Part shown: positions 3,455 through 13,580 of the stretch, in pieces
Numbering within the stretch: position 1 is the stretch's first letter
Layout: every line of letters begins with the position of its first letter
NCBI GenBank assembly: GCA_950295325.1
Contig: OX485804.1
Location: 65,944,033-66,008,032 of the forward strand
Reading direction: 5' to 3'
DNA from: Polytrichum commune
Taxonomy: Eukaryota > Streptophyta > Polytrichopsida > Polytrichales > Polytrichaceae
DNA length: 64,000 nucleotides
The notes under the pieces: model-generated
The model's database searches: none
Seen by the model: the letters and a program-made list of their open reading frames with translations, nothing else
What the model was told of the DNA's origin: nothing
Translations under genes and position numbers: made by a program

Positions 3455-3898
3455 ATGCAGACAGCTATGGCGATGGCTGTCAATATGGCCACAAGCTCCG
3501 TAGTAATCAATGCACCATCACGAGCAACATTCTCTAAGAACTGCACAACCTCCTCTTCGTCCTCTCTTAGCATCCCCAGGCGGTCCATGAGGGTTCAATC
3601 ACAGCCTACTAACCAAGAGTACGTCAACTATGCCGGCAAGAACTCCGTCTTCCCTGCGGAGGCATGCGATGAAGTTGGAGGAGATGCGTGCAATGTGGAC
3701 GGGGTTGGTCCAGAGGTGAAGCCCAAGGCGGCGGAGGCCGCACCACCGGCACCGAAAGCAGAGACCGATGGAACAAACCGAGTGTATGTGAATTATGCCG
3801 GGAAGAAGAGCGTGTTGGCAGGCGAGGCGTGCGATGACCTAGGAGGGGAGTTCTGCGAACCCGAGTACCAAGAAGGCGTGGGACCTGAGATGAAATGA
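3455..3898 (+). CDS. LIR1: Light-regulated protein 1 (LIR1), chloroplast precursor
   Basis: This is a 147-residue, single-exon reading frame. Residues 1 to about 45 are rich in Ser, Thr, Ala and Arg with almost no acidic residues, as in a chloroplast transit peptide. The mature part has two copies of the LIR1 repeat: residues 56-88 (YVNYAGKNSVFPAEACDEVG, then GDACN and a GPE end) and residues 111-146 (YVNYAGKKSVLAGEACDDLG, then GEFC and a GPE end). A Lys/Ala/Pro-rich linker joins them. Each repeat keeps its cysteine pair (C71/C79, C127/C134). In rice and Arabidopsis, LIR1 binds leaf-type ferredoxin-NADP(+) reductase, strengthens its attachment to thylakoid tethers such as TROL, and is light- and clock-controlled. 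That role is family knowledge, not read from this sequence. The length is close to the family norm. The ATG at 3455 is preferred because it gives the transit peptide. A tandem array starts about 60 bp after the stop. Confidence 0.93.
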   Translation: MQTAMAMAVNMATSSVVINAPSRATFSKNCTTSSSSSLSIPRRSMRVQSQPTNQEYVNYAGKNSVFPAEACDEVGGDACNVDGVGPEVKPKAAEAAPPAPKAETDGTNRVYVNYAGKKSVLAGEACDDLGGEFCEPEYQEGVGPEMK

Positions 3899-3956
3899 GA
3901 CTGGAGCTCACATCTGAGATATGCCATGGACGCTCCAGAAGGTAATGAACCTCTTC

Positions 3957-4757
3957 TTGTAGAATGCAGAGGTGAAGGGCGCCTAGTCGGTATTTGATTT
4001 ATGAAGAACGTGATTACCTTGTTGTATTTGTAGCATTGGAGGCATTTGTTGAGAATTCCGTAGAGATGCAATGGGGATGCAATAGGCACTTGTACGTATG
4101 AAGATGGTCGACGATTGTCTGTGATTTGTAAAAGACGTGACTAGTTGTATTTCTGTAGTATTGGAGACATTTGTTGATAATCCTGTAGAGATGCAATGGG
4201 GAAGCAGGCACTTGTGTGCATGAAGATCGTGGATGGTTGTCTGTATGTAATATATTGGTGTCAGATTTGTGAATGATGTGACTAGTATTTGTAGCATTGG
4301 AGGCATTTGTTGAGAATTCTGTAGAGATGCAATGAACTGCAATCGGCACTTGTGTGTACGAAGATGGTGGATGATTGTTTGTATGTTAGACAAGAACGTG
4401 TCCACAGTTTCTTGCTATTTAGAATGCAGAGGTTATGCATCTGAAGGGGGCCTATTTGATGTGCAGTTCTGAAAGATGTGTAGTATGGGGAGATAATGTG
4501 TACATTGGAGACGTTTGTTGAGAATTCTATAGAAATGCAATGGGGATGCAATCGGCACATGTGTGTGAAGATCGTGGATGGTTGTCTGTACGTAATATAT
4601 TGGTTTGAAGTTTGTGAATGATGTGACTAGTTGTATTGGAGGCATTTGTTGAAGAATCTGTAGAGATGCAATGTGACACAATGTGATGCAATTGGCACTT
4701 GTGTGTATGAAGATGGAGGATGATTGTCTGTATGTTGTCTGCAAGTCAAGAATGTTT
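3957..4757. repeat. Tandem repeat array directly downstream of LIR1
   Basis: Five degenerate copies of a roughly 75-bp core ('ttggaggcatttgttgagaa', then 'gtagagatgcaatggggatg', then 'ggcacttgtgtgtatgaaga') begin at about 4031, 4155, 4291, 4498 and 4631. A larger period is also visible: 'tagaatgcagagg' with 'tgaaggg.gcct' occurs at 3958 and again at 4420. The array probably lies in, or just past, the LIR1 3' untranslated region. Long minus-strand open frames across it come from the repetition and are not called as genes. Confidence 0.85.
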
Positions 4758-6605: not shown

Positions 6606-6781
6606 GGTCATAACATTATTTAGTAGTGTGCGTTTGTTCATGTGGGCCCAAAGAACTAAACTATGGATGGCATAGTTAGTACAAATTTAGTCTGAATTTG
6701 CACTAGCTGCGACATCCATAGTTTAATTCTCGGGGCCCACACGAATGAACGCACATTGCTTAATAATGTTATGGTTTGACC
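6606..6781. mobile_element. Family D fold-back MITE, copy 1
   Basis: The 176-bp element is one long imperfect palindrome. The left arm GGTCATAACATTATTTAGTA ... ttgttcatgtgggccc is mirrored by the right arm gggcccacacgaatgaacg ... taatgttatggtttgacc, around a small loop near 6690-6705. It is inserted in a family E repeat. A second copy lies at 13995-14169. Confidence 0.8.
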
Positions 6782-11480: not shown

Positions 11481-11810
11481 GACTCCAATGTTGGTTGGAA
11501 AAACACTCTAAATGCGTATCTTTACAAAGAAGAAAAAGAAGAAAAACTTCGGTCTCCGGAGGAGACCGACGTGAATGAAGTGTCTGTTCGATCCTCCTCC
11601 AATCCGATGCCCACAGGACAAAGGTATGGAGGTAAAGATCTACTCCTCCCTTTCGAGAGTAGACACTATAGTCACCAATCACTAGTAACAAGAACCAAAA
11701 TGGTTAGTTTTTAGGGGGGATTGTTAGTATGGTTTGGGTCGCCAAGTCTCTAGTGCATTTGTTAGTGGATGGAGTAGAGTGGCTTAGTTACTAAAGTTTT
11801 ATGGCTTTAT

Positions 11811-12600
11811 CTATGGGGGGTCTAGTGTTTGGGGCAGGGGTTGGTGGTTTTCTATTCTTCTTTTGTGTAGGAGGATAGACATGGCATATTTAATAGCGAT
11901 AGTATTGATGTTTTTAAAAGTATTTTTAATGATAGGCATAGGTATTTTAAATTTATTTTCGAGTGATTTCATTGAAGGAATGTGTGTAGTGGCTCTAGCG
12001 CCTGCGGTGATTATAATAAGGGGGTCAACTTTCCATCCTCTAGCAGCAATACTATCGATTAATGGTTTATATTTGTTATTTTTTGCTTCGAGTGTTTCTG
12101 GAGAGAATCTATCATTACAGTATGTGAATTCGATGAATTGTATGGTGAGGTTGGGGTCCATGTCTGTGGGGGGGTCATTTTGGTACGGTAATCCTCTAAC
12201 ACAAAGGATGTCAGGTCTAAATCTGGAGTTACAATGACATCTTTGTGTACTGCATGTGCAAGGGAGTAGCCAATTGGGAACGGTGTTTTCCTGGGATGTA
12301 TTATTGAAGGTGCCAGCGTTCATGAGAATATAACATCGAGATTTTTCAGATGAGATTAGTAATTTCCTAATTTCCCATACAGCTTTGTTGTGTCTTTTGA
12401 CGTGAAGTGAATGTATATGTTGTTGTTTACACGTAAGTAGTACATGTAACCACGTGTCCGGTTCGTATGAGTTGCAAATGGGGCATGTAATAGAGGGATA
12501 TGATTGTCTACCGAAGAACAATTGTTTTCGAGCATTGCCCATATAGGTTCCGCGTATCTTTACAATTAACACAATGTACATGCAACAACAAGAGATGTGG
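11811..12600 (-). pseudogene. LINE ORF 3' fragment: R2-type zinc finger plus restriction-like endonuclease
   Basis: A frame open for 256 codons from 12581 encodes the C-terminal part of a non-LTR retrotransposon protein. It has a CCHC finger (C33-x2-C36, H46, C51) followed by the H..RH..V stretch that marks R2-type elements. After this come R122-P-D and E151 in IEFTY, which fit the (K/R)PD...E core of restriction-enzyme-like (PD-(D/E)XK) LINE endonucleases. A Lys/Tyr pair (K170, Y171) follows. No reverse transcriptase lies upstream: the homology ends near 12600 and an in-frame stop follows, as expected for 5' truncation at insertion. Residues 181-240 are conserved in the broken copy at 42200-42625, which supports this being real coding sequence. 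The exact clade is not determined. Confidence 0.72.
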
Positions 12601-13580
12601 TTCTTGTTTAAGAAACTTAGATTCTACCATCATGTCTATGATTCATAAGACTAGCTGGCAGAATTTTACACACACTTAGAAGTAGATGATGTCACAAAAA
12701 TTATGTATAGGTTTAGATTTATTTTATACTTAGTTTCAATGACATTCCATGAGAAGTTCTATTTAACTTACACGTTTGATCCAAATTAGACTAATTCTAC
12801 GTTAGTGTAAGATGAGCATTGAGGAGATTGCAACCTTATCCATTTACCTATCTCTGGATAAGGTTGCGTCATTTACTATCATCTATGTATCCATTGCTAT
12901 CATTTACTTTCCACACCTTTTACCAGCTCAAAGTGAGCCCATGCAATGCCTTTCAATTGTCCCTAGTTTGGGACAAAGCTTGTAAGTATTGATCTCAATG
13001 ATAGAATATGTGCAGTTTATTCAATACTATTGTAATGCTTTGAAAAGCCGATTTACATAACAATATTCAGTTGTTAGTAATCATTTCATTCTAATAATAT
13101 CAGTAAATTTTTTCACCCGAGTTTTTCAGCTTAAATTTGTCAATGCAGTGTTCTGTTGTGAGAACAAACAAAGTATTATTCCAAATAGAATCTAGCTTAT
13201 TTGCAGCCCCACCCAACATACGGCCTCAATTGAATAATGTATGTACCTGATAATATGCAATTTGAATATACATTAATGTGTTGACTTGATTATGTGCAAT
13301 ATGTTGAATCGTTGATATTGAAATGAATCATGATCTTTATAATACCATAAGTTGATAGCGAGTCTTGCCAATAAATCCCCAAAATTAGACGTTTTTCAAA
13401 TATGAAAATTGGGCATGTTGTGCGAAATATGTTTTAATCTCACACGTAGTTGCCAAAACGTCCACATCAAGACTTTGTACAGTTGCTCGTTTGCCCACAC
13501 ACCTCAAGTGTAATAGGTGTGTTATTTAGTGTTCACATTTGCTTGCAATGAGTTTATTGGCTTTGCCCTGTGATAAGAGA
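12601..13580. other. Intergenic sequence, nothing recognised
   Basis: AT-rich, with no coding signature and no repeats matched to other parts of the window. Confidence 0.4.

Follow-up and report, generated by a model that had tools for sequence, protein, structure and literature searches.

What kind of mobile element does the long open frame at this locus come from? Across the window, by which we mean the whole stretch of 64,000 nucleotides analysed, only one closed frame with an ATG, GTG, or TTG start has 150 residues or more: a frame of 256 codons at 11811-12581 on the reverse strand. The original prediction took it for a fragment of a plant LINE with a C-terminal CCHC finger and an R2-type restriction-like endonuclease, assigned it to the R2/NeSL/HERO group, and assumed that this nuclease stands in place of the apurinic-like one. 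The frame is present, and so are all the residues named for it, i.e., C-x2-C-x9-H-x4-C, RHN, RPD, the E of IEFTY, and K..KY. With a probability of about 0.83, we read the fragment as the 3′ end of a land-plant non-LTR retrotransposon that is autonomous, has been active recently, and has a dual-endonuclease architecture like that of Dualen/RandI. Elsewhere in the window, an intact gene for the light-regulated protein Lir1 lies at 3455-3895 on the forward strand (Pfam, E 8e-27).

An exact 14-bp duplication, at 11514-11527 and 12552-12565, brackets the element and delimits a copy that is truncated at its 5′ end. Because the duplication puts the 5′ limit of the element at 12551, residues 1-10 of the 256-codon frame are not part of it. 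At the other end, the element extends past the frame, via the 3′ UTR, to 11528. The features referred to below are, in window coordinates:

11528-12551, reverse strand: 5′-truncated LINE copy of 1024 bp, with bounds given by the target-site duplication
12552-12565, no strand: target-site duplication flanking the element on its 5′ side, which reads TTGTAAAGATACGC on the reverse strand, exact 14-bp match
11514-11527, no strand: target-site duplication at the 3′ end of the element, exact 14-bp match
12552-12581, reverse strand: codons 1-10 of the 256-codon frame, made up of flanking DNA and the duplication
11811-12551, reverse strand: the C-terminal 246 codons of ORF2, and the stop codon
12429-12485, reverse strand: CCHC finger, C-x2-C-x9-H-x4-C, invariant in the copy alignments and in the same order as in solved R2 proteins
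12387-12395, reverse strand: RHN motif, invariant in the copies and in three R2 sequences
12231-12260, reverse strand: additional cysteine cluster, CTC..RCxC, between RHN and PD, with invariant cysteines
12072-12218, reverse strand: predicted core of the restriction-like nuclease, with RPD, the E of IEFTY, and K..KY; PD, E, and both K invariant
11549-11569, reverse strand: predicted 3′-terminal RNA hairpin, with the fold kept through compensatory changes in five copies
11528-11547, reverse strand: pyrimidine (CTT-rich) 3′ tail

Outside the 5′ end of the element, a short inverted repeat without mismatches (GCAACCTTATCCA / TGGATAAGGTTGC, around a loop of 12 bases) was noted by eye at 12830-12867.

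The 256-codon protein alone matched no Pfam family and no solved structure, no relative was found in the viral contigs scanned, and a fold predicted from the single sequence gave a model of no use (pLDDT 35). Relatives were found in the host genome, a land plant, which was searched in six frames (407.8 Mb in 64 contigs, of which C1-C7, at 42-78 Mb each, make up nearly all). From 5449 first-look candidates, at least 148 scored copies were obtained, the window's own included, all with E <1e-145, with 82-100% amino acid identity, and with open frames of up to 2625 residues. The window copy is 97.3% identical to copy L037 over 1026 aligned columns, and 98.9% identical to copy L002 across 737 nt of coding sequence. 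The prediction of a fairly recent insertion is supported, and so is that of intact, near-identical relatives elsewhere in the genome. In the same genome, 41 Dirigent matches exceed the curated cut-off, of 42 matches among 54 scored candidates; dirigent proteins are characteristic of land plants.

Three full copies were read in their entirety: copy A on contig C1, copy B on C5, and copy C on C2, with lengths of 12,702, 12,490, and 11,965 bp, respectively. In each, the two flanks have 12 bp in common; the 3′ flank of copy B finds another 12-base match at 368, and that of copy C another at 6673, within the element, and the matches nearer the element start were taken. Over long aligned stretches (10.3-12.0 kb), the three copies are 99.0-99.6% identical. 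One comparison gives 99.3% for A-B and A-C over 10,254 bp, and 99.6% for B-C over 11,869 bp; a second gives 99.0% for A-B over 10,731 bp, and 99.1% for C-B over 12,014 bp. Copies B and C have most of the 5′ UTR in common. The 5′ boundary of copy A is less sure because its first 2.0 kb barely match B and C (over 113 bp only, at 74%); either 5′ UTRs have been exchanged within the family, or the 5′ match of copy A is due to chance. In all three copies, ORF1 is a frame of 747 codons and ORF2 one of 2625 codons, the open stretch of which starts 22 nt ahead of the end of ORF1; in copy A, no ATG occurs in ORF2 before codon 50, which is one. ORF1 of copy A matched no Pfam or NCBIfam family, and a RING-finger match (E 0.049) was under the cut-off. 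A reverse transcriptase (RT) is encoded in the open ORF2 of all three, upstream of the region preserved in the window, and the identification as a plant LINE fragment is borne out by this genomic family. The full element measures about 12-12.7 kb, and consists of a 5′ UTR with tandem repeats, ORF1, a multi-domain ORF2, and a 3′ UTR that closes with a hairpin followed by a short tail of repeats.

The 5′ UTR repeats were located at 3888-4070 and 4579-4677 of L040, and at 4492-4702 of L039; copy B has units of 18 and 48 bp, and copy A has units of 98 bp, and a repeat-type promoter that differs between copies is possible. The host genome also contains families of this LINE clade that have diverged further, approximately 27-80% identical to copy A depending on region, at C1:40948585 (L046, L047) and at other places with a PF12237 match. 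On C3, L014 and L015 (10.66 and 10.74 Mb) have the same 3′ flank at a distance of about 84 kb, which suggests a segmental duplication or an assembly repeat. L018 (C4:37223688-37225481) comprises two insertions of different subfamilies, arranged tail to tail on opposite strands with their coding ends about 290 bp apart. One repeat, 99% identical between L002 (1-1078), L036 (2754-3829, oriented), and B (1-866, other strand), borders on truncated copies from each of the two subfamilies and is also found upstream of copy B; it is perhaps another mobile element inserted into LINE copies.

From the N- to the C-terminus, ORF2 is composed of a leader, a 2A motif, an apurinic-type endonuclease, RT, a PCIF1-like domain, RNase H, the CCHC finger, and the restriction-like endonuclease. 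The leader is the most variable part, with 27% identity between copy A and L047. The canonical 2A core is D(V/I)ExNPGP in the available text of a StopGo survey (PMC12846837), and both DIEPNPGP in copies A, B, and C and DIETNPGP in L047 agree with it, so that skipping is predicted for these copies from sequence; L048 reads DIKPNPGP and departs from the core. The apurinic-type domain precedes RT. In L047, Exo_endo_phos is over the curated cut-off (E 1.2e-5, 25.7 vs. 24.5 bits); in a fragment of copy A, Exo_endo_phos_2 is matched over profile positions 2-116 of 117, under the curated cut-off (E 2.3e-4). Scans of the whole ORF2 of copies A and L048 gave no Pfam match for this domain, and the L048 region was identified by alignment (93% identical to A). 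The region further matches an exonuclease III model in NCBIfam (E 0.0048), and its three best matches in the PDB, at E 0.28-0.34, are exonuclease III chains. RNase H (PF00075) is found in copy A (E 4.6e-13), L047 (E 1.3e-14), and L048 (E 2.9e-12). An AP endonuclease in place of the restriction-like one would have spoken against the original prediction; full-length copies encode an AP endonuclease in addition.

For the C-terminal region, the evidence consists of motif order and a modest similarity to R2. Across the aligned copies (n=7 and n=6), the named motif residues are invariant but for one, since L047 has K in place of the R of RPD; L045, a degraded copy outside the alignments, has LD in place of PD. 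A finger followed by RH[ND] did not arise in any of 20,000 shuffles of the window protein. For comparison, the corresponding stretches were drawn from solved R2 proteins in the PDB. Residues invariant among three of these R2 sequences include, in the finger, a C, the H, and the final C, and beyond it RHN, PD, D, EK, and Y. The LINE copies have their finger, RHN, PD, E, and K..KY in the same order, and the CTC..RCxC cluster has no counterpart in the three R2 sequences. Local alignments of the window protein and L047 with these sequences gave z values of 2.7-6.0 over shuffles, with scores equalled by 0 to 20 of 1000 shuffles depending on the comparison; hhalign gave a probability of 13% (P 0.0021) for a match covering the finger and RHN only. 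Pfam and PDB searches of the nuclease returned nothing but chance matches (DUF6242, E 0.23, and NusA, E 0.25, respectively), and the NCBIfam scan contained no family for it. Profile searches of the peptide name no family; the order of the finger and nuclease motifs, as in R2, and the modest similarity make an R2-type restriction-like nuclease likely, as originally predicted.

Selection was assessed by NG86 codon comparison (dN/dS) in seven pairs of copies. Between copy A and L048 (dS 0.40-0.61), dN/dS is 0.076 for the apurinic domain, 0.060 for RT, 0.102 for the PCIF1-like domain, 0.053 for RNase H, and 0.099 for the finger and restriction-like endonuclease (RLE). The corresponding values between copy A and L047 are 0.148, 0.079, 0.125, 0.167, and 0.105, at a dS of 1.4-2.1 in the recognised domains, which is near saturation. 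Over all seven pairs, the recognised domains lie at 0.05-0.22, where RNase H is saturated and without a value for L035 vs. L047, and the apurinic domain is comparable in two pairs only. Constraint is weaker outside the domains, with 0.52 for the leader, 0.34 for the 2A region, and 0.31 for the stretch between RT and the PCIF1-like domain (A vs. L047). The recognised ORF2 domains are under purifying selection, and both nucleases and the PCIF1-like domain look to have given no sign of dispensability over the history of the families. A chance open frame is ruled out, since genomic copies exist and selection on them is seen.

Target-site duplications were found in seven of 12 copies tested, with lengths of 9, 11, 12, 12, 12, 14, and 14 bp. 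The other five (L002, L004, L010, L024, and L036) show no duplication with the boundaries used; for L002 and L036, which are broken off against the common repeat, we take this as later damage. L034 lies outside this result, its 5′ end being beyond the stretch compared. The junction set comprised 33 distinct junctions (L011 is the same as L038; L015, a duplicate of L014, and L037, a duplicate of L007, were left out; and L026 and L035 are without the motif used). The seven duplicated sites are unrelated in sequence and have nothing in common but a T at the start, which may be an overlap with the tail; a target-site preference, raised together with the R2/NeSL/HERO placement, is not seen among them.

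These results bear directly on that placement, in which the C-terminal endonuclease would be the only one of the element. The finger and nuclease motifs occur in R2 order, and the RT is R2-like: the RT domain (Pfam, E 2.6e-29) matches three R2 chains among solved structures (9nl3, 9dou, and 9nl2) at 4e-31 to 1e-30. The chains 8gh6 and 8ibw, which we take to be R2 as well, score 9e-20 and 2e-18, close to LINE-1 ORF2 at 3e-17. These figures are from the search with RT only, as LINE-1 was absent from the structure search with the whole ORF2 (E up to 1). Against the R2/NeSL/HERO assignment, the frame includes, ahead of RT, an apurinic-type endonuclease (identified with Pfam in A and L047, by alignment in L048) that is under purifying selection, RNase H is encoded, and no target is common to the seven copies, of 12 tested, in which duplications were found. 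Because the parent carries both the apurinic-type endonuclease and RNase H, we reject the assignment, and consider it very improbable. A plant L1 is likewise rejected on the RT scores, since a control L1 RT from the same genome behaves in the opposite way: it matches LINE-1 (about 1e-45) better than the three R2 chains (4e-17 to 7e-17). An ordinary plant L1 of this genome (L051, C1:47506800-47511300) has a 1476-codon frame with apurinic endonuclease, RT, and zf-RVT, and at least 141 zf-RVT matches were obtained from 150 scored of 322 candidates.

The PCIF1-like domain between RT and RNase H is recognised by PCIF1_WW (PF12237) with E values of 3e-10 (copy A), 2.3e-11 (fragment), 2.5e-12 (L047), and 1.2e-10 (L048). 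Of 697 candidates in the host genome, 150 were scored for PF12237; every one of these 150 places exceeds the curated cut-off, and many of them lie outside the copies found with the window protein. A profile of the domain compared with the solved PCIF1 structure 6irx gave a match of only 52 residues (E 0.78), ranked below one to a viral polymerase chain of no relation (0.57), and the PCIF1 match falls on the same stretch as that of PF12237. The catalytic motif of PCIF1 is NPPF. In the equivalent place, aligned by eye, the LINE copies have HPHN, HPNN, or HPPN, and the aromatic residue is missing. Because of the changed catalytic motif, we favour a predicted role in RNA or cap binding over methyl transfer. 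An active cap-adenosine N6-methyltransferase that marks the RNA of the element itself would agree with the scores over the cut-off at every scored PF12237 place and with the purifying selection on the domain, but the altered motif and the lost aromatic side chain speak against it, and we regard it as improbable.

The 3′ end differs between subfamilies, with a (TATC)n tail in that of copies A, B, and C, and a mostly CTT- or CT-rich tail in that of the window copy. Just upstream, the candidate hairpin compared in the window copy, A, L047, L048, and L035 has 92.5% of its cells paired, and three of the eight pairs are changed on both sides. This pairing was reached in 5 of 500 shuffles and the number of changed pairs in 22 of 500; the pair types show no excess (380 of 500 shuffles), and an alignment slid by one column still pairs at 67.5%. 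For five sequences, we consider this supportive of a conserved 3′ hairpin rather than strong. The usual model of LINE insertion, target-primed reverse transcription, fits this element. One nuclease would make the first nick, most likely the apurinic type, because the insertion sites have no long sequence in common, and the hairpin and tail would form the end of the template. The finger and restriction-like nuclease could then bind the target or a branched intermediate and cut the second strand. The 2A motif is predicted to release the leader peptide, and the PCIF1-like domain, with its changed catalytic motif, would bind the capped RNA of the element without methylating it.

In the available text of a review, the LINEs of land plants are L1 and RTE only (PMC9033089). 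No case of Dualen/RandI in a land plant was found in the open-access literature as far as its accessible text goes, a Repbase entry being possible, and none of a dual-endonuclease LINE in that on mosses and bryophytes, among the matches listed. Nor did the accessible open-access texts on PCIF1 with retrotransposons yield a PCIF1-like domain inside a LINE, or those on 2A in LINEs a land-plant case. The presence of 2A in a LINE is in itself not new, since apurinic-type LINEs of multicellular organisms with 2A are the subject of a paper cited in the accessible part of PMC12846837. The same text surveys StopGo and gives no natural use by plant viruses, though StopGo works in plants; a plant LINE with a canonical 2A core would, given none in plant viruses, be a natural plant case. 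The combination of two endonucleases, 2A, and a PCIF1-like domain appears undescribed for land plants in the literature searched. Most likely, the element is a dual-endonuclease LINE that belongs to the Dualen/RandI kind or stands close to it and has two more parts that are unusual; in its land-plant host, it is abundant and has been active recently. A wider proposal is that of an undescribed, thriving LINE clade of land plants, in which each endonuclease is under selection for its own strand or step, a captured cap-methyltransferase fold binds the cap and so keeps the protein with the RNA that encodes it, and StopGo sets the N-terminus; we put this forward as tentative, at clearly less than even odds. 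Dual-endonuclease LINEs bear on the origin of apurinic-type from restriction-type LINEs, a matter taken up in the available portion of PMC4640811, and open copies that are nearly identical allow asking what each nuclease does.

How the element relates to Dualen/RandI is a matter of descent as well as of architecture. True membership, by vertical descent from a green-algal ancestor of plants, is in our view slightly better than an even bet. The same pair of nucleases together with RNase H is described for Dualen in the accessible text of PMC4640811 and PMC3636483, and Dualen is known from green algae in that of PMC4438587 and PMC8226300. However, the likeness is one of described architecture, 2A and PCIF1-like domains go unmentioned for Dualen in the available parts of these four papers, and horizontal arrival would fit equally well. 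The alternative of a separate lineage, in which an R2-like element independently gained an apurinic endonuclease and a PCIF1-like domain, would account for an RT that scores higher with R2 than with L1, the unusual PCIF1-like domain, and the extra cysteine cluster in the nuclease, but the rare architecture would then need a second origin, and we find it rather unlikely.

Compared with known systems, this LINE, which we read as Dualen/RandI-like, has the apurinic-type and restriction-like endonucleases in common with Dualen/RandI as described in the accessible text of PMC4640811 and PMC3636483, and RNase H in common with Dualen as given in PMC4640811. The former nuclease lies N-terminal and the latter, by motifs and R2 similarity, likely C-terminal to RT. 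Compared by these partial descriptions, it differs in its land-plant host, in its 2A motif, and in the PCIF1-like domain between RT and RNase H; the hosts of Dualen/RandI named in the available texts are green algae (PMC4438587), relatives of Chlamydomonas (PMC8226300), and cryptophytes (PMC12747079).

As for R2, its chains are the best RT matches among solved structures, and finger, RHN, PD, and K..Y come in the same order in both. To our knowledge, R2 has no apurinic endonuclease and no RNase H. R2 is mostly target-specific according to the accessible part of PMC4640811, whereas the copies of this LINE that were examined have no common target. The plant L1 (L051) also has an apurinic endonuclease ahead of RT, but ends in zf-RVT, and its RT favours LINE-1 over R2, the reverse of what is seen here. 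With the cap-adenosine N6-methyltransferase PCIF1/CAPAM, the LINE shares the PF12237 domain, at E values down to that of L047; unlike the enzyme, the LINE domain carries an altered catalytic motif and is embedded in a retrotransposon.
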